DNA of 64,000 bases from Phormidium tenue FACHB-886 (GTDB lineage: Bacteria > Cyanobacteriota > Cyanobacteriia > Elainellales > Elainellaceae): the NCBI RefSeq assembly GCF_014764505.1, contig NZ_JACXWX010000024.1, positions 1 through 64,000 on the forward strand, written 5' to 3'. The notes under the pieces are model-generated. The model saw nothing but the letters and a program-made list of their open reading frames with translations, was not told the DNA's origin and made no database searches. Each line of letters begins with the position of its first letter. Within the stretch, counting starts at the first letter, position 1. The translations under genes and the position numbers were made by a program. Shown piece by piece: positions 2,712 through 53,963 of this stretch.

Positions 2712-3875
2712 CTACCTGGGGCTTGGCAACGAATAAGAAACACGGAAGCCAATGGTATTGCTTTTTTCGTCAATATAGAAAGATTCTCTTATTGAACAAC
2801 GAAGCCGATCAGGCTTGTCATACCAAGCCCCCCCTTTTATTATTACCCGAGAGAATTTATCTAAAGGAACTCCGCCCTCAGTTCCATCATCCCTAGTACA
2901 TGTCCATTCCCAGACATTTCCTGCGGTGTCGTATAGCCCCCAATCATTTGATGGAAATTGATCAACAGGTGATGTCATCCTTTTTTCGTCCCATGGAGAT
3001 CCGCAGCCATTACAGTTCGCCATAAACTCATTATTTCGCTTGATCTCGTTACCCCACCAATATGCGGAATTGGTTCCCGCCCGTGCTGCGTACTCCCACT
3101 CAACTGCCGTTGGTAAGCGATATTCCTTGCCAGTTCGCTCGCACAACCACTCTATATATTTCATTGCATCAAGAAAGCTAACGTTTATCACTGGTCTATC
3201 TTCGCGTCCCCATCCCATGTCGTTTGACATCTCATATTTTGATGCTTCACAAAATAGGTCATATTGGCGGAAGGTGACAGGAAACCGTCCTATTGCAAAC
3301 TCATCAATGACTTGGAGCCTAGTTCTGTCTTCCTCTCTGCTAATTAAATAGTTTCCTGCTGGGATTCGAACTAATTCGGGACCATCAACAATTTTGTCAC
3401 CTATTCGAAATGTATCTTTGATGATTCTGTCTAATTCCTCCGATTTGGGACGAACCTCTACATCCGGTGCCTGTACTTCAGGATTTCGAGGCGTTTCGGG
3501 TCTTGCTTGCCTTGCCTCGAGCTTACAATAGTCGCTCTCAGTTAATTTCAGCTCAAAGGTACGGAAGCACCGATCGAGCGTGCGGCGGTCAACCCCTTGT
3601 TCACAACCCAGCACTTTTGCCACCGTACCAGGATCTAGCCCGGTGCGATCGCTAAGTTCTTCAAGGGTGAATTTCTGACCAAATTTTTCTTCGCTTTCAA
3701 GAAGGGAAATTGTCTCCCGAAGCTTTTGTTCTCCCTGAAAGCTGAGGACAATACCGCGGTTACGTCTTTGGGTAGATTCTTCGGGTGTCATAGGCGAGAT
3801 GTACAGAGGGTAGAGTTCATCAATGATGGTCTGGAGGGACAATGAGGGCAAGGGCGCGATCGAGTGAGGTTGCAA
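2712..3875 (-). CDS. HTH plus FGE-sulfatase (SUMF1-like) domain protein
   Basis: 387 residues in the present frame. Residues about 35-110 form the winged/HTH module often found in cyanobacterial conflict-system (NB-ARC, pentapeptide, vWA-MoxR-associated) proteins: RRNRGIVLSFQGEQKLRE, FTLEELSDRTGLDPGTVAKV and VDRRTLDRCFRTF. Residues about 165-385 are a formylglycine-generating-enzyme-like C-type-lectin fold: VRIPAGNYLIS, EEDRPVINVSFLDAMKYIEW-like elements, YRLPTAVEWEYAARAG, GLYDTAGNVWEWT, IKGGAWYD and TIGFRVS. In this setting such domains are usually binding or recognition modules rather than sulfatase activators. The start is unclear: the listed start is a TTG, and the frame is open back to a TGA about 45 bp further upstream. 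It overlaps the CHAT gene by 88 bp in another frame, which suggests one ancestral polypeptide. Confidence 0.75.
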   Translation of the reverse strand: MQPHSIAPLPSLSLQTIIDELYPLYISPMTPEESTQRRNRGIVLSFQGEQKLRETISLLESEEKFGQKFTLEELSDRTGLDPGTVAKVLGCEQGVDRRTLDRCFRTFELKLTESDYCKLEARQARPETPRNPEVQAPDVEVRPKSEELDRIIKDTFRIGDKIVDGPELVRIPAGNYLISREEDRTRLQVIDEFAIGRFPVTFRQYDLFCEASKYEMSNDMGWGREDRPVINVSFLDAMKYIEWLCERTGKEYRLPTAVEWEYAARAGTNSAYWWGNEIKRNNEFMANCNGCGSPWDEKRMTSPVDQFPSNDWGLYDTAGNVWEWTCTRDDGTEGGVPLDKFSRVIIKGGAWYDKPDRLRCSIRESFYIDEKSNTIGFRVSYSLPSPR

Positions 3876-4807
3876 GATATCAGCAACTTGGGTAGCACTC
3901 TGCCAGTCTGGACCTGCTCAGTTGCAAATGCCAGATAGCCTTGTGGCTCAGGTAACCATTGCCCCCAAGCCCTACAGGATGCCGCTCTAATCCCTGGATG
4001 CATCGTCAAACAACCTGGATTCGTACAGCGTTTACCAAACACCTCATGCGCATCAAAATGCAACACTTGGGGCATTTGCTCAGAAGAACAATCCGTTAGA
4101 TAGCGATTCAGGTCTTTACGGGTAGGAGATAGTAAGATTTGCAATTGAACTAACCCAACATCCTGTGCCCGTTCCAAACCGACTTGAACCGCTTGCTGTT
4201 CCTCTTGCGTCAACTGAGCCAGCCTTTGTGGTCTAGCAGAAATCAACAAGACCCGAACCTCCTCCTGAGCAGGTAGTTGAGGACGTGAAGCCTCATAGGC
4301 AATGTAGCGAGAGAGCCTGGCTCGTTGGTGAAGTAAAAAGCGTTGACCATCGTGCAACAACTCCCAGGGATAGTCTGCTAGGTGCGATCGCTTCCTAGAG
4401 TCTTCTGCAAATTTCAGCCGCAGATGCAGGTCCGTACCGTGTTGTTCAGACAGGCGCAGAGAATGCTGTAAAACTCGCTTGAGGGTACTATCGGGTGGAA
4501 AGAGGGATTGATACAGAGCTTGTCCAATCCGCCATAAATAGGCTGAATCAAAATGTTGCCGATCTGGAAGCAGCGGTCCCTCCTGCTCCAGCCAATCTTG
4601 CTCACCCACTTCCGGAAAGTTTTCAGAACGAAACCCCTGGCTACTTTCCAGAATTTTGATGATAGTTCTTTTCCAGTCTTGCTTCCCTGCCCAGAATGGT
4701 AAATTACAGTCTGTCGAGGCATCCCAAACCTCATTGGGTACACGGGCAGCGAGCGTCTTGAATCGTTGGGTATTCCATGGAGGGAGCGTTAACTCTAGTA
4801 GCTCCAT
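3788..4807 (-). pseudogene. CHAT-like (caspase-fold) protein, truncated
   Basis: Starts at an ATG at 4807. Residues about 100-290 match the N-terminal half of the CHAT peptidase domain found in bacterial conflict systems: DYPWELLHDGQRFLLHQ, RVLLISARPQR and VLHFDAHEVFG with the catalytic His. An inserted zinc-ribbon-like segment follows (CTNPGCLTMHP and SCRAWG; the last expected Cys appears to be Trp). The second half of CHAT, with the nucleophile in a motif like SCESA, is absent. After YLAFATEQVQTG the frame runs out of frame through the start of the HTH-FGE gene, giving a non-natural tail. I infer a deletion or frameshift near 3890-3920 that split a CHAT-HTH-FGE protein. An intact but catalytically dead partner is a less likely alternative. 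Confidence 0.65.
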
Positions 4808-5179
4808 ACTGTTCCCTCAGCCGCTTGAACAAGGTTAAAACTGATTATACAGATTCCCTTCCTCGCCTTTCAGCAATGCCTCTAAACCCTGCTTCACGGT
4901 AGTAGGCACGTTATTAGAATGGAGGGTCTATAAAACTCCATCAAGCGCTCTTTATCGAACAGCAGCGATCGGATGGCACTAAAATGCATCGTCGCTACCT
5001 CTAAGTAAATGAGGCGAATCACCCCAAACCTCACAGCATAATAGAGAGTCTGATCAAATCTATTTAAGATTATAATATCAGCTAATCATTCGCCCTTTCC
5101 CCCACTTTTCTCACTCTCCCCATACGTCAACCTTTTCAAGTTCTCCATAATTGGGAGAAGAGAACAGGAGGTTTTCGAA
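4808..5179. other. intergenic region with a possible gene relic
   Basis: The minus strand shows two short coding-like pieces in different frames: MHFSAIRSLLFDKERLMEFY at about 4985-4926, and VPTTVKQGLEALLKGEEGN ending in NLYNQF and TAA near 4842. They may be the remains of a small gene upstream of the CHAT gene; I do not recognise it. The plus-strand gene at 5180 has its ribosome-binding site (AGGAGG) at about 5167. No convincing promoter was identified. Confidence 0.35.
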
Positions 5180-6544
5180 ATGCTGAAAAAAATAGCTGAT
5201 GAGTTGGAGCGCTTTGACGCGAGTATTGACGTAATCAACAGAGAGCAGGCTAAGAGCGCAATTGCGGCTGCGCTGGGTGCGGCTCGCGTCCTGCTAGGGG
5301 CTATGACTGCCGAAGTGTTCTATATGTCCGAAAAACCGAAAGAGGCGATTAGAGACAACAACACACGATATAGGAGAATGGCTCCGCACTTTCTTCGTTT
5401 TGCCGAGGATCTCGATCCTGATGATTCTGATGCATTAGATAAACAAGCACTTGGCGAGTACCATCCGGATGATGATGGGACGTGGACATGGTCATACCAG
5501 AATAATAGTGAAGTTTGGGTTGAAGACAGATGGGTAGAATATACAAACAATACTAGGGTTAGAAGATCTAGCCATAGCGACCCTGTTGACATGGAGAACA
5601 GGGTCGCTATGGAGAATATGGCTGCCAAGGAGGAAGCGTATAGAACTATCGAAAAAAAACACAATATATTTTGGAATTCTGTTAATGCCGTAATAGTTAT
5701 TCCCTTCTTCTACAAAATCGGGTCCACTTTCGTTGACAATGGCAGCACTAAGGGGTTGATTAGTCATCAAGCTAATGGATTCATTAGCTTTGAATTCAAA
5801 ACACCAAAGAGGTATGACCGAGAACAGCTCGATCAACTCCTTAGAATACGTGAATCTGTAGCCGACCTTATCTGGAAAAGCCACGCATGGCAGGATAGCT
5901 GTGACGGCACAAACCATGTTGTTAAAAAATTCAAAGACGAATGCGATAGAGCCAAGAAAAGATTTCTGCCCATCAAGACCGGGCTGTTTGCTCCCAAAAG
6001 ACAAGGCTATGAAAATCTTATAGCACTAATCGAAACAACGTTTAGAGAGAGCAGAATTGAAATGAAGACGTATGATGGAGAATCGGATGCTTTAGGACTA
6101 GTGCAAGCTCAATCTAGCCAGGACATATTCCAAACACAGAGCATTAGGGATGTACACTTCGCAGTTTTTGATATTACGGAGAAAAATCTAGTCGCAGATA
6201 TATTAGTCGGTGTCATGTTTGCTGAATGTAAACCGTGTTTAGTTCTCCATGAGAACTCTGAACCGGCAAGACATCGTCTCGTAAGACAACTTACCGTAAG
6301 AGGTGGACAAGACACCGACTGGCTCCTGTATGCATGGCTTTATGAAAGACAGTCGAACGGCGAGGAATACCTGTTCTTTAAGCCTAATAATAGGGAACGG
6401 AAAACATGGGGAGAAGTATGGGAAGATTTCCTTCACAAAGTTAGGAGAATTTCATCAACATTCCAAATAGCAGCTGACTCGACTGAGGAGAATACTAATG
6501 GTGTTGAATCAAGTAAAAATGCTAGCCAGTGGAGAAGCCCTTAA
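5180..6544 (+). CDS. unrecognised protein: GAF-like core with TIR/deoxyribosyltransferase-like C-terminus
   Basis: 454 residues, ATG with a strong AGGAGG about 10 bp upstream. I cannot name the family. Residues about 25-75 (KSAIAAALGAARVLLGAMTA) and 165-245 (SVNAVIVIPFFYKIG, GLISHQANGFISFEFKTP, REQLDQLLRIRESVADLIW) look like the two halves of a GAF sensor split by a charged insert of about 90 residues. Residues about 285-375 (QGYENLIALIETTF, SIRDVHFAVFDITEKNLVAD, CKPCLVLHE) resemble the nucleoside-deoxyribosyltransferase/TIR-like fold, in which a conserved block I..AdfvIaDlT..NpNVyyELG..ha..kpvill is usual. The glutamate of that block seems replaced (VADILVG). I saw no HIP1 octamer inside the gene, unlike most of the window, which fits recent transfer. 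Its position between a broken CHAT/FGE locus and IS debris suggests a defence or signalling role; that is inference. Confidence 0.6.
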   Translation: MLKKIADELERFDASIDVINREQAKSAIAAALGAARVLLGAMTAEVFYMSEKPKEAIRDNNTRYRRMAPHFLRFAEDLDPDDSDALDKQALGEYHPDDDGTWTWSYQNNSEVWVEDRWVEYTNNTRVRRSSHSDPVDMENRVAMENMAAKEEAYRTIEKKHNIFWNSVNAVIVIPFFYKIGSTFVDNGSTKGLISHQANGFISFEFKTPKRYDREQLDQLLRIRESVADLIWKSHAWQDSCDGTNHVVKKFKDECDRAKKRFLPIKTGLFAPKRQGYENLIALIETTFRESRIEMKTYDGESDALGLVQAQSSQDIFQTQSIRDVHFAVFDITEKNLVADILVGVMFAECKPCLVLHENSEPARHRLVRQLTVRGGQDTDWLLYAWLYERQSNGEEYLFFKPNNRERKTWGEVWEDFLHKVRRISSTFQIAADSTEENTNGVESSKNASQWRSP

Positions 6545-7002
6545 ACTGACTTTATGTTGAGTGCGATCGCGGGATAGCAAGGCAGTGGCAAGATTCTTTC
6601 GCAAAGTGCTCAAAGCTCACCGTACTCACGCTCCACGAGTGATTACAGTAGACAAGAATGCTGCTTATCCAGCGGCAATAGACACTCTCAAAGCAGATGA
6701 GATGATTGATCAGAAGACGGAACTGAGGCAAAGCAAATATCTAAATAATAGGGTTGAGCAGGAGCACCATCGATCAAGCGAATCGTGAAACCGATGATGG
6801 GGTTCAAGACGTTCAATAGCGCGAGAAGAACTTTGAGCGGAATTGAAGCAATGAATATGATTAGAAAAGAACAAGTCAACGGCATCGATAAGGGGATAGT
6901 ATATCTCAGGTCAGATTTATCAAAGCACGCTTTGGTGGAGCTGCTTAAGATGATGAGATTGATAAAAATCGTTTGTCTTTAAAAAGTTTTTGCGACACAA
7001 CC
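6545..7002 (+). mobile_element. IS6-family remnant (3' half with right terminal repeat)
   Basis: Encodes the C-terminal half of an IS6/IS26-type transposase in two frames: SKAVARFFRKVLKAHRTHAP, RVITVDKNAAYPAAIDTLKA and LRQSKYLNNRVEQ, then after a shift near 6775 KPMMGFKTFNSARRTLSGIE and AMNMIRKEQV. It ends at 6983-7002 in TTTTTGCGACACAACC, the complement of an IS6-type terminal repeat GGTTGTGTCGCAAAAA. The 5' half is missing, so it is not mobile by itself. Confidence 0.85.
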
Positions 7003-9949: not shown

Positions 9950-10905
9950 TTACAAACAAGCCAATTTTGGACTCGCGTTATATGCAAGTAAGAACCCCTT
10001 GCAGACATGATATTTGCTAATAGGCTCGATTTGTCGAGTAGGGAAGACTCCTCCAATGTTTAGGCTTGCTTTATATTCTCCGTTTCTCTCTCCTTCCAGT
10101 TTCGAGAGTGTCACAAGATTCAGCCTTACATCGTTGTGAGCCTCCCTCTTACAGAAGCCTGCCCGCGGTTTTCCCGCCCACGCCTCTTCCGCCTCCGCCA
10201 CCTTATCTGGCATCCGGTTCGCAAACTCCAGCGGCGTAAACACCTCATCGTTCGAGAGATCGGCAATGCAGGTCAGCACATCCGGATTGTGACCCCGCAG
10301 TGCAAAACAGCTTGAGCATTCATACAACGTCCTCCTTCGGCGCAGCATCGCGATCAGCAGCGCCAGATCGCGCACCGTCATCGGCGGGTCGGTCTTCGTC
10401 GGCGTAAAAATCTCATGCTTGCCGAGGTGGGCAAACTGCGGATTTTCCGCGCTAAAGGTCGATGAACGGGTGAGGAAATCGAGAGGGAAATCGTGCCGCT
10501 GAAATTTGCCCTTGCCCAAATAGCCCCACTCGGCAAAGGTAATCAGCGAGCTGTCGTAGGTGCGCATCGTCAGGGCATCACCATGCACCAAGTTCTGCGA
10601 CAACACATAGGACGCCGCCCGATAGAGATCATCCGACTCATCCAAATTCAGGTACTCGGCGAAGATTTCCAGCACATTGGCGCGACATTAGCAATGTTGT
10701 CTGCCAATAGCTCAATCCCGTAAGTGCACATCAGAGCGAGAAGGGCGAAGTGCTGCCTTTCAAAGTCAGACTTCCCGAATTTGAGTTCGACGGCAGCGAG
10801 CTTGCGACGTAGAATCTGTACGAGGAAGTTGCCGCTCCCGCATGCTGGCTCCAAGAAGCGGGAGTCAGATACCCCCAGCGAAGCTGGTGGCTTGATGAGT
10901 GTGAC
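9950..10905 (-). pseudogene. chimeric remnant of restriction-modification DNA methylases
   Basis: Starting near 10905 one frame gives GVSDSRFLEPACGSGNFLVQ and FERQHFALLALMCTYGIELL, the SAM-binding motif I region of an N6-adenine DNA methylase. A frameshift near 10685 moves into LEIFAEYLNLDESDDLYRAA, LSQNLVHGDALTMRT and FAEWGYLGKGKFQRHDF. At about 10390 the text switches to ALRGHNPDVLTCIADLSNDE and VFTPLEFANRMPDKVAEAEE, which is the N-terminal part of a different M subunit. It then loses similarity and ends in non-natural sequence. No NPPY-type catalytic motif or restriction subunit is present. So two methylase genes were fused and broken by deletion. A 241-residue frame (10675-9950) is still open but would not be an active methylase. 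Confidence 0.75.
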
Positions 10906-10956: not shown

Positions 10957-11319
10957 CTATTGCTCATCCTCTAGAACGACTGCACTTTTCTCCAGCCTGG
11001 CACTGGCATCCTTGAGCAGTTGAAGATGACAGGCGCTAGAGAGCAGGTTAGCAACTGCGGCGATCGCTGCTTCAGTAGTTTGTCCGGATAAGAGCATATC
11101 GGCACCTTTGAAGCTGATAATGGCACCTGCTGTGATGATCACAAGAGACAGGTTGAAGCTACAACGGGCTTGGCGCAAATGTTCCAGAGCAACGCGAAGG
11201 CGAAACTCCTCTGCCGAACTAGGTGTTGTTCTGGCGAATCTTCTCTCCAACCGTCGCTGGTGTACAGAAGGGTTCAGTCTCGATCGAACGTTGAACAAAA
11301 GCTTCTGAAACGGAGTCAT
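10957..11319 (-). CDS. cyanobacterial TRADD-N-associated two-TM domain protein
   Basis: 120 residues, ATG with AGAGGTGG upstream. The pattern FRLRVALEHLRQARCSFNLS, LVIITAGAIISFKGADMLLS and AVANLLSSACHLQLLKDASA matches the small two-transmembrane module that accompanies TRADD-N-type domains in cyanobacterial conflict proteins. Two membrane segments are visible at about 55-78 and 84-105. The N-terminal 45 residues are basic (VRSRLNPSVHQRRLERRF). I see no TRADD-N or effector partner next to it, so it looks like an orphan. Family assignment is from memory of the domain; exact function is unknown. Confidence 0.6.
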   Translation of the reverse strand: MTPFQKLLFNVRSRLNPSVHQRRLERRFARTTPSSAEEFRLRVALEHLRQARCSFNLSLVIITAGAIISFKGADMLLSGQTTEAAIAAVANLLSSACHLQLLKDASARLEKSAVVLEDEQ

Positions 11320-28321: not shown

Positions 28322-30325
28322 ATGGTCAAGCGATCTCTCCGGGCCTCATCTTCTGGGATGCAACAAGCAAAGCGTGCTTTTGCTTACAAAGGATGGACTC
28401 AAGAAAATTTGGCGGGGGAAGTAGGGTTAAAGACGCGCCAATCGGTCTGGCGTTTTTTTACTGGGCAGCCTGTTGAGCGGCAGATTTTTCAAGAGCTTTG
28501 CTCGATTCTAGATCTGGATTGGCGAGAAATTGCGATCGATCCTCCCGCAGAGTTTCCCGAACCCGGAGAGGTGACTAATGCACCAGTTGCAGACATTGAT
28601 ACTCTAGTGAAACGCGTGAAACTGCAACGCCAGCACAAGATCCAAGACCAGTGCGGTACCTTGCAGCTGTTGAACCTCAGCCACCCTGTCAAAATCGATG
28701 ACCTCTATATAAACGTCAACATCGTAGAAGAAATTCCGAGCCAGCAGTGGTTAGAGTTAGCTGACCTGCAACGCATCACGCCCCAAGAGTGCGATCGCTC
28801 TAGCTTAGAAGCCGTGTCTCAGACTCAAATAGCGGGCGTGAAAGCGGTCGAAATCTACTCGAAGCTGCGAGTGTTAGGGAAGCCAGGGGCAGGTAAAACT
28901 ACTTTCTTGCAGCATCTAGCGATTCGGTGCAACCAAGGTAGCTTTGCGGCCAATCGAGTTCCAATTTTTGTCAGCTTGAGCGATTTTGCTGATGAATCTA
29001 GAGCAGCAGGTGAGTTGAGCTTACTCAGCTATATTTCTGACGACTTTCGCACTTCGGGTATTTCAGACCTATCTGTGCTTGAAACTCTATTGCAAGAAGG
29101 CAGAGTGTTGCTGTTGCTAGATGGGTTAGATGAAGTGCTTGAGCAGGATTGTAAAGCGGTTGTCAATGAAATTCGCCGCCTTTCTGAAAAGTATCAACAG
29201 AATCTGTTTGTCGTGACTTGCCGCACAGCAGCTAAAGCGCTTAACCTCAGACGTTTCACAGATGTGGAGATAGCTCCGTTCACGCAAGACCAAATTGTGG
29301 CGTTTGCCCAAAAGTGGTTTACAGCCTTGACGAAGACCACGTTTCAAGGTGGGCAGGCACAAGCAGTTCAGTTCGTCCAGCAGCTAGGATTACCTGAAAA
29401 CATCCCGGTGCGAAACCTTACTATGACGCCGCTGTTTCTCCATCTTGCCTGCTGGATTTTCTATCATCAGGGAAAATTTCCTGCTAAACGAGCGGAATTT
29501 TATAAGCAATGTCTAGAGCTTTTGCTCAGCAAATGGGACGAAACGAAAGGCATTGAGCGTGACGAGATGTATCACGGTTTTTTACTGCCCCAAAAGCTTA
29601 AGCTGCTGAGCCAAGTTGCAACAGTCACGTTTGAGCAAGGGCATTACTTTTTTGAACGACAAGCCATTGAACAACAGATTGGTGACTACATCCGCGATCT
29701 ACCCAATGCTGCGATCGAGCCAGAGGAATTGCAATTAGACAGTGAAGGGATACTCAAGGCGATCGAGCTACAGCATGGAGTGTTGGCAGAACGGGTACAA
29801 GGAATTTTCTCTTTCGGCGATCAGGTCTTTCAAGAATATTTTACCGCTCGAAAGATCGTTGCTAGCCACAATCTGCAAGCATCTAATCGAGCATTAGAAC
29901 AGCTAGTCAGCCATGTGACTGAGCCCCGCTGGCGAGAAATCTTTTTGTTAACCGTTGCCATGCTGCGAAGTGCAGATTCTCTAGTGCAGTTGATGAAGCA
30001 AGAGATCGATGCGATCGTGGCTCAAGATCCACACCTGCAAAAATTTCTAACCTGGGCAAGCCACAAATCTCTTGCTGCGCCTCCTCAGGCTGCTGCTACC
30101 CGCACCAACCAACATCGCAACACTCAGAATGGCTGGCACTTCAGCTCAGAGCAGCAAGAAATATTGCAACGATACTATGATGCCATTCAATTGTTGCTCG
30201 ACTGCCTCAATAGCAACTGCGAAGTGACCGCTGCCGTCCGGCAGGAAATTGAAGGCGCTTTGTTATTACCCCAGAAGGAACTTGAGGAGCGAGAATGGAG
30301 TAATTCTGAGAAGCAATTTGGGTGA
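28322..30325 (+). CDS. NACHT-domain NTPase with N-terminal HTH
   Basis: 667 residues. N-terminal HTH at about 15-70 (FAYKGWTQENLAGEVGLKTR, QSVWRFFTGQPVERQIF). A linker, then the STAND-type NACHT: Walker A GKPGAGKTT at 186-194, Walker B LLLLDGLDEV at 263-272, and the winged-helix/ARC part (VRNLTMTPLFLHLACWIFYH). FSFGDQVFQEYFTARKIV at about 500 is the usual C-terminal boundary, followed by a helical region (HFSSEQQEILQRYYDAIQLL) like the small C-terminal domains of cyanobacterial NACHT conflict proteins. No LRR, WD40 or enzymatic effector is fused. Bacterial NACHT proteins of this kind can protect against phage, but here that is inferred from family only. Confidence 0.85.
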   Translation: MVKRSLRASSSGMQQAKRAFAYKGWTQENLAGEVGLKTRQSVWRFFTGQPVERQIFQELCSILDLDWREIAIDPPAEFPEPGEVTNAPVADIDTLVKRVKLQRQHKIQDQCGTLQLLNLSHPVKIDDLYINVNIVEEIPSQQWLELADLQRITPQECDRSSLEAVSQTQIAGVKAVEIYSKLRVLGKPGAGKTTFLQHLAIRCNQGSFAANRVPIFVSLSDFADESRAAGELSLLSYISDDFRTSGISDLSVLETLLQEGRVLLLLDGLDEVLEQDCKAVVNEIRRLSEKYQQNLFVVTCRTAAKALNLRRFTDVEIAPFTQDQIVAFAQKWFTALTKTTFQGGQAQAVQFVQQLGLPENIPVRNLTMTPLFLHLACWIFYHQGKFPAKRAEFYKQCLELLLSKWDETKGIERDEMYHGFLLPQKLKLLSQVATVTFEQGHYFFERQAIEQQIGDYIRDLPNAAIEPEELQLDSEGILKAIELQHGVLAERVQGIFSFGDQVFQEYFTARKIVASHNLQASNRALEQLVSHVTEPRWREIFLLTVAMLRSADSLVQLMKQEIDAIVAQDPHLQKFLTWASHKSLAAPPQAAATRTNQHRNTQNGWHFSSEQQEILQRYYDAIQLLLDCLNSNCEVTAAVRQEIEGALLLPQKELEEREWSNSEKQFG

Positions 30326-52481: not shown

Positions 52482-53414
52482 CTATTTCTGCAGATAGTTC
52501 TGCAGCGTCTCATACTGATCTTGCAGACGAGACAGTGCTCCGTCAGGAAATTCATCAAACTGAGCGGTTTCACTAAACTCTGCCAGAGCCGCTTGTCCTT
52601 TCTCAGATTCATCCATTGCAAGCATCACTGCTTTAATGGCGTTAGCCTGCTCTGGTGTGATATCAGGGGCAGCCAGAACTACCTGTCTGGGATAGAAATC
52701 TGTCTCGGCGATGACAACAAGCTGTTCTCGTTCGGCTTCGGGAATCTCTTTGAAAGCTTCATTGTCAACAGTGCCAACCGCCACTTTGCCATCGAGAATC
52801 CACTCGGCTGTAGTTTCGTCTTCACCTGAGAAGATATAGCCTACTTCATCCTCTGCAACTGGGTGATTTGGTTCAGCCTTTTTGACCGGCTTCATATTGG
52901 CGCTTAGCATTTCCACCATTGGGAACATAAACCCGGAGCTAGAATCAGGGTCTTCGAGCGCAATCATCTTGCCTTTAAGATCTGCTAGAGCAGTGATACC
53001 GCTATCGCGCCGCGCCACAAACAATGTGTTGTACTCTGACACACCATCTTTCCAACGTCGCAGAATGGGTGTTCCCCCCGATCGCTCCATCACTTTCATA
53101 ATCGGATAGACGCTGTCGAAGTAAAGATCGGTTTTACCAGAAGCAAGCCATTCTGCGGCAGTTTCAGAATCCGGAGCAATTTCTACTTTGCCTGTGGTAA
53201 TTCCTGCTGCGCCCAGATTCTTGCCTAGGTAATCGGCAACTGGCTGGGTTTCAGGCACCAGAGAATCAGGATCGAAATCAACATCTGTAAGGACGATCGC
53301 CTCTTTATCAGAGGCAGTGAAGCCGGTCGAAACCTCAGGAGACGAGCTACAGCTAACTGGAAAAATCAAACTTGCGATCAACACAAGGGGGGCTAGAGAC
53401 TGGCGTGGCATCAT
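52482..53414 (-). CDS. PhnD-like phosphate/phosphonate-binding lipoprotein
   Basis: 310 residues. N-terminal signal with a lipobox-like LIFPVSCSSSPE (Cys about residue 22), so a membrane-anchored periplasmic protein. The PhnD/TAXI-like solute-binding fold shows ALADLKGKMIALEDPDSSSG, AEWILDGKVAVGTVDNEAFK and VIAETDFYPRQVVLAAPDIT. These proteins normally feed a phosphate/phosphite/phosphonate ABC transporter, yet no permease or ATPase gene follows. Instead two chemoreceptor genes do (182 bp to the first). It may be a ligand-binding partner for one of the receptors, or a stand-alone relic. Confidence 0.82.
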   Translation of the reverse strand: MMPRQSLAPLVLIASLIFPVSCSSSPEVSTGFTASDKEAIVLTDVDFDPDSLVPETQPVADYLGKNLGAAGITTGKVEIAPDSETAAEWLASGKTDLYFDSVYPIMKVMERSGGTPILRRWKDGVSEYNTLFVARRDSGITALADLKGKMIALEDPDSSSGFMFPMVEMLSANMKPVKKAEPNHPVAEDEVGYIFSGEDETTAEWILDGKVAVGTVDNEAFKEIPEAEREQLVVIAETDFYPRQVVLAAPDITPEQANAIKAVMLAMDESEKGQAALAEFSETAQFDEFPDGALSRLQDQYETLQNYLQK

Positions 53415-53906: not shown

Positions 53907-53963
53907 GCATGTGAGCATAACTTTCGTTGTGCTTGCAATATAACGAAAGTTATGCTCACATGC
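53907..53963. repeat. perfect 22-bp inverted repeat, 13-base spacer
   Basis: Arms at 53907-53928 and 53942-53963 are exact complements (inner core ATAACTTTCGTT / AACGAAAGTTAT). The spacer is GTGCTTGCAATAT. The spacing of two ATAAC...GTTAT arms recalls tyrosine-recombinase core sites, but a MITE end or a bidirectional hairpin are equally open. An IS6 scrap follows 27 bp later. Confidence 0.9.

Follow-up and report, generated by a model that had tools for sequence, protein, structure and literature searches.

Gene content of the locus

The window analysed here, a stretch of 64,000 nucleotides, is the start of a contig within an 8.9-Mb genome. The abundance of HIP1 octamers and the cyanobacterial families near the gene indicate a cyanobacterial host. 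The window contains an orphan gene, P0001, and the following features in and around it:

2712..3875, reverse strand: FGE (FGS, PF03781) protein with an N-terminal HTH-like segment (Pfam E 3.4e-43; likely true start ATG 3791)
3788..4807, reverse strand: CHAT protease fragment (Pfam CHAT 3-168 of 289; by six-frame reading, the remainder is missing after a break in the frame ahead of the FGE gene)
5125..5179, forward strand: leader of the orphan gene, which aligns with the stretch between the TIR-FGE gene and the orphan gene of genome G596; the similarity fades further upstream
5166..5171, forward strand: ribosome-binding site AGGAGG
5180..6544, forward strand: orphan gene P0001, 454 aa
5180..5914, forward strand: N-terminal region of the orphan protein, residues 1-245, GAF-like by eye only, without HMM support
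5572..5612, forward strand: perfect inverted repeat with a 16-bp stem and a 9-nt loop, within the coding sequence of the so-called charged insert, at about residues 131-145
5972..6454, forward strand: C-terminal region, residues 265-425, weakly TIR/deoxyribosyltransferase-like
6164..6235, forward strand: would-be catalytic block VFDITEKNLVADILVGVMFAECKP, residues 329-352, with Leu342 at the expected Glu (by-eye alignment to L075 and L078)
6548..7002, forward strand: IS6/IS240-family transposase remnant, directly after the orphan gene
10648..10854, reverse strand: MmeI-type DNA methylase fragment, a restriction-modification remnant (E 1.3e-5, which does not reach the curated cut-off)
10957..11319, reverse strand: CyanoTRADDas_TM protein (PF20712), a cyanobacterial conflict-system membrane component (E 5.7e-14)

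The original prediction placed the gene beside a broken CHAT/FGE locus and IS debris, and this description holds, with the CHAT domain cut at 168 of 289, the FGE gene and the IS6-type remnant; an IS200 fragment is also found to the right of the orphan gene. The CHAT reading frame continues into the FGE gene (window 3788-3900), and this fusion-like start of the FGE open reading frame suggests that the second half of the CHAT domain was lost through a deletion. The FGE gene is on the opposite strand to the orphan gene and 1.3 kb from it, with the broken CHAT gene in between. No regulatory NTPase of the STAND, KAP or MoxR-vWA types was recognised among the open reading frames at 1-16 kb of the window, the nearest NTPase found being a NACHT protein (28322-30325), 22 kb from the orphan gene.

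Coding signals and composition of the orphan gene

The reading frame of 454 codons is uninterrupted, and the very strong ribosome site noted from the sequence is present as AGGAGG, 8 nt before the ATG. The GC content of the gene is 43%, against a window mean of 47%; because long genes of the window reach down to 46%, this is only mildly unusual. The gene also contains no HIP1 octamer (GCGATCGC), as had been remarked; however, at the density of the window (57 octamers in 64 kb) the expectation for its 1365 bp is only 1.2 and the probability of finding none is ~0.30, so the absence has no statistical weight and the argument built on it was rejected.

The inverted repeat at 5572-5612 has an RNA fold z of -6.2, and no other copies of it were found in the window, the comparison loci or the plasmid collection. 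An insertion or a template switch could account for it, or it could act as a regulatory hairpin. Elsewhere in the window there is a perfect 22-bp inverted repeat with a 13-nt loop (53907-53963), upstream of a phosphonate-binding-like gene (52482-53414).

Relatives and selection

The orphan protein has no recognised family, in agreement with the original prediction: searches of Pfam, NCBIfam, PADLOC, PHROGs and PDB sequences with the full-length protein and with its halves returned no credible match. Likewise, there was no match in pattern scans of IMG/VR and 84,980 species genomes or in a tblastn search of plasmids and phages, and a search of the regions flanking another 28 FGE loci revealed no distant relatives. 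A protein search was made in ~640 genomes, comprising a sample of the phylum, the gene's own family and order, a sample of the class, and the family and order of G596. Its sole credible match was in G596, which belongs to another cyanobacterial family of the same class (orphan residues 1-79, 76% identity, E 1.7e-27). The relative covers only about the first 78 residues because its contig ends there, and residues 1-79 are the conserved part of the orphan protein in this comparison. Three weak genome matches were rejected as chance; one of them (L002) is of alpha-amylase/branching-enzyme type by reading, and the others are L003 and L004. The gene is thus very rare among cyanobacteria and of no known family.

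Over the 78 aligned codons, pS was 0.408 and pN 0.135, for a dN/dS of about 0.25, which indicates that selection has acted on the protein sequence since this lineage and that of G596 diverged. On the evidence of this one relative, with dN/dS about 0.25 over 78 codons, the orphan gene is inferred to be real and functional. These values bear on the possibility that it is a passenger or decaying gene in an IS graveyard, with no present function. The broken CHAT, methylase and transposase genes on its flanks, its great rarity and the perfect coding hairpin, which could derive from a recent insertion or templating event, would all fit such a passenger. However, the full-length open frame, the strong ribosome site and the purifying selection since the G596 split, though perhaps not recent in the window lineage, argue against it, and a gene without present function is considered rather unlikely.

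Association with FGE genes

Kaur et al. (PMC8195603, PMC7159879) describe FGS (FGE) domains as lectin-like domains of conflict systems, preponderant in cyanobacteria, which are located C-terminally and preceded by TIR, caspase, DRHyd or adaptor domains. In these accounts they are proposed to bind invader molecules and are regarded as putative sensors or effectors. An FGE gene is found with the orphan gene in both carrier genomes, which are two cases only. In G596, the relative starts 60 bp past the stop of a TIR-FGE gene and is codirectional with it; the TIR-FGE protein has 448 aa, with an N-terminal TIR_2 (E 6.3e-11) and a C-terminal FGE (E 1.7e-43), and belongs to a type that putatively senses invaders and kills the infected cell. 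A MazE-like/PIN pair and a phage-type integrase are located upstream on the same contig. Inspection of the homologue's neighbours, which had been suggested as a check, hence revealed a TIR-FGE gene, MazE/PIN genes and an integrase. A defence or mobile context is supported at both loci, and this contextual part of the original proposal is supported more strongly than was evident from the sequence alone; the anatomy given for the protein, a sensor joined to a nucleotide-acting effector, was not.

The FGE halves of the window protein and the G596 TIR-FGE protein are 69% identical, against 39% for the next-best FGE among 390 genomes of the class, and this FGE type and the orphan gene are confined to the same two genomes among those searched. 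The two FGE proteins begin with unrelated segments, TIR in G596 and HTH-like in the window. The FGE and the orphan gene, the latter in its N-terminal part, are therefore conserved together in two cyanobacterial families, while the N-terminus of the FGE protein is exchanged. Since the leader of the window gene aligns with the intergenic stretch of G596, the ancestral gene order is probably that of G596, and the window order would have arisen from it by rearrangement.

The immediate succession of the two genes in G596 would also suit a partner of the antitoxin or immunity type, which would hold the TIR-FGE effector in check until infection occurs, and the strong ribosome site of the window gene would be appropriate for an inhibitor made in excess. 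However, 454 aa is large for an antitoxin, and the window gene persists with an FGE protein that has no TIR domain. This function is therefore regarded as unlikely.

The C-terminal tail is the place diversified by diversity-generating retroelements (DGRs) in other FGE proteins. The tail of the window FGE (2712-2820) diverges more from G596 than the core does (dN 0.30 vs 0.17). Substitutions are thus somewhat denser in the tail, but none of the seven reverse transcriptase stretches in the genome had, in its locus, a template matching the 3' end of the window FGE gene, so that DGR diversification gained no support from these loci. The same genome also encodes a retron-like reverse transcriptase of ~380 aa with a YADDITFS motif (L041, G000:C68, about 89 kb).

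Domain predictions for the orphan protein

From the sequence alone, the N-terminal half had been read as a GAF sensor split by an insert. This was not borne out. No GAF match was found in the protein with Pfam, and a profile built from five GAF domains of the window placed the N-terminal half at rank 187 of about 3000 shuffles (~1 in 16), that is, it scored like shuffled sequence.

The TIR/deoxyribosyltransferase-like fold proposed for the C-terminal region was not confirmed either, its profile score being weak and library matches lacking. The orphan protein itself has no TIR match in Pfam, TIR being located in the G596 partner, and no match to Nuc_deoxyrib_tr or DRHyd with E up to 10. With a home-made profile of nine deoxyribosyltransferase/DRHyd domains, a hypothesis chosen after the motif reading, the C-terminal region scored 4.7 bits and ranked 6 of 5001 against shuffles; against real open reading frames, the same profile ranked it only 14 of 859. 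The profile alignment falls exactly at the block that had been singled out by eye. AlphaFold2 run on the protein without relatives was uninformative (mean pLDDT 32.5 and 41 in two predictions). The resemblance of the C-terminal region to this fold is accordingly suggestive, not demonstrated.

The block itself (D331-ITEKNLVADILVGVMFAECKP-352) is present, and it is altered at the expected catalytic Glu, as originally observed. In the by-eye template of L075 and L078 (...DLT..N..NV.FELG.A.A..KP), the Glu of the E-x-G-x-A block corresponds to Leu342 of the orphan protein, within DILVGVMFA. If the deoxyribosyltransferase-like resemblance is real, this replacement would make a binder or adaptor likelier than a nucleotide-cleaving enzyme. 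A protein acting on its own, with a GAF sensor and an active nucleotide-cleaving TIR/deoxyribosyltransferase-like effector, would be in keeping with the motif reading, the defence and mobile surroundings and the suggestive C-terminal score. Nonetheless, the rank of the GAF profile among shuffles, Leu342 at the Glu position, the lack of a family match and the TIR-FGE protein paired with the G596 relative, which already supplies an effector, make such a protein quite improbable.

Proposed role

Because of the linkage with FGE, here it is proposed, with roughly even confidence, that the orphan protein is a non-catalytic accessory partner of an FGE(FGS)-type cyanobacterial conflict cassette, which acts on the FGE side by reading nucleotides or licensing the effector. 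What counts for a cassette is the codirectional linkage at 60 bp in G596, the FGE identity of 69% against 39%, the restriction of both genes to the same two genomes, the dN/dS of 0.25, the TIR_2 and FGE matches of the G596 partner, the published view of FGS domains and of dead enzyme domains in conflict systems, and the conflict-type neighbours at both loci. Counted against it are the single relative, known over its first 78 residues only, so that the comparison does not extend to the rest of the protein, the location of the window FGE on the other strand beyond a broken gene, the lack of an adjacent STAND, MoxR or vWA gene and the unconfirmed domain folds.

In the proposed mechanism, the lectin-like FGE domain would recognise a molecule of the invader or a stress signal from within the cell. 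The conserved N-terminal region of the orphan protein would be the part that works with the FGE domain, and not with the exchangeable head of the FGE protein. Its C-terminal region may be a catalytically dead TIR/deoxyribosyltransferase-like fold, which would bind a nucleotide (e.g., NAD, ADP-ribose or a cyclic nucleotide) and license or restrain the effector. Co-location with an FGE gene is a fact of both loci; binding to FGE, nucleotide reading and a role in immunity are what we infer. Since the window cassette is rearranged, with the FGE gene divergent, 1.3 kb off and separated by the broken CHAT gene, it may have ceased to function as one unit at this locus.

A more specific form of this proposal, an undescribed two-gene cassette in which an FGE with an exchangeable head is joined by a new family whose dead TIR-like domain reads a nucleotide and controls the effector, is doubtful. 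The conflict systems of multicellular cyanobacteria are largely known from sequence, and FGE-containing proteins stand out in them as putative sensors. If a partner is retained beside the FGE through exchanges of the effector head, this would reveal the part that it serves; a cassette of only two genes is also small enough to be tested in a laboratory strain. In addition, a dead TIR-like fold in the C-terminal domain, if real, would add to the inactive enzymes that serve as nucleotide readers in bacterial immunity.

Comparison with known systems

The locus resembles the FGS/FGE-type and MoxR-vWA ternary conflict systems of multicellular bacteria (Kaur et al. 2020, PMC7159879; 2021, PMC8195603) in its C-terminal FGE, the exchangeable N-terminal effector such as TIR, the cyanobacterial host and the TRADD-N-associated 2TM protein near the window gene. 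Dead versions of enzymes are also reported as effectors in such conflict systems (PMC7159879). Unlike those systems, the window locus has no adjacent NTPase, vWA or MoxR, has the orphan protein as a partner, and showed no DGR template in the reverse-transcriptase loci checked. The orphan protein is not mentioned in the passages of the two accounts that were consulted.

TIR-like folds are also reported to serve as antiphage effectors in the Swarozyc/DUF4062 TIR-like NADases (PMC13174449); unlike these, the orphan protein has no DUF4062 match. By eye, the segment GFISFEF...YDREQLDQLLRIRESVADLI resembles the end of a GAF domain (PF01590, PF13185); however, the region scores no higher than shuffles, has no Pfam match and is interrupted by 40 residues. 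Similarly, the C-terminal region has the order of elements found in DRHyd/Nuc_deoxyrib_tr (PF05014) and TIR-like domains, that is, a hydrophobic strand, D-[LIV]-[TS] and G-x-x-x-A...KP, but it differs from DRHyd/Nuc_deoxyrib_tr in the lack of a significant HMM match, in the change of Glu to Leu and in that only about 40 residues align.

One of the sequences behind the by-eye template, L075 (2299-4665), has two DRHyd-like copies by eye, of which the first looks active and the second lacks the Glu, followed by a P-loop NTPase region with weak ORC-CDC6-like and AAA matches.
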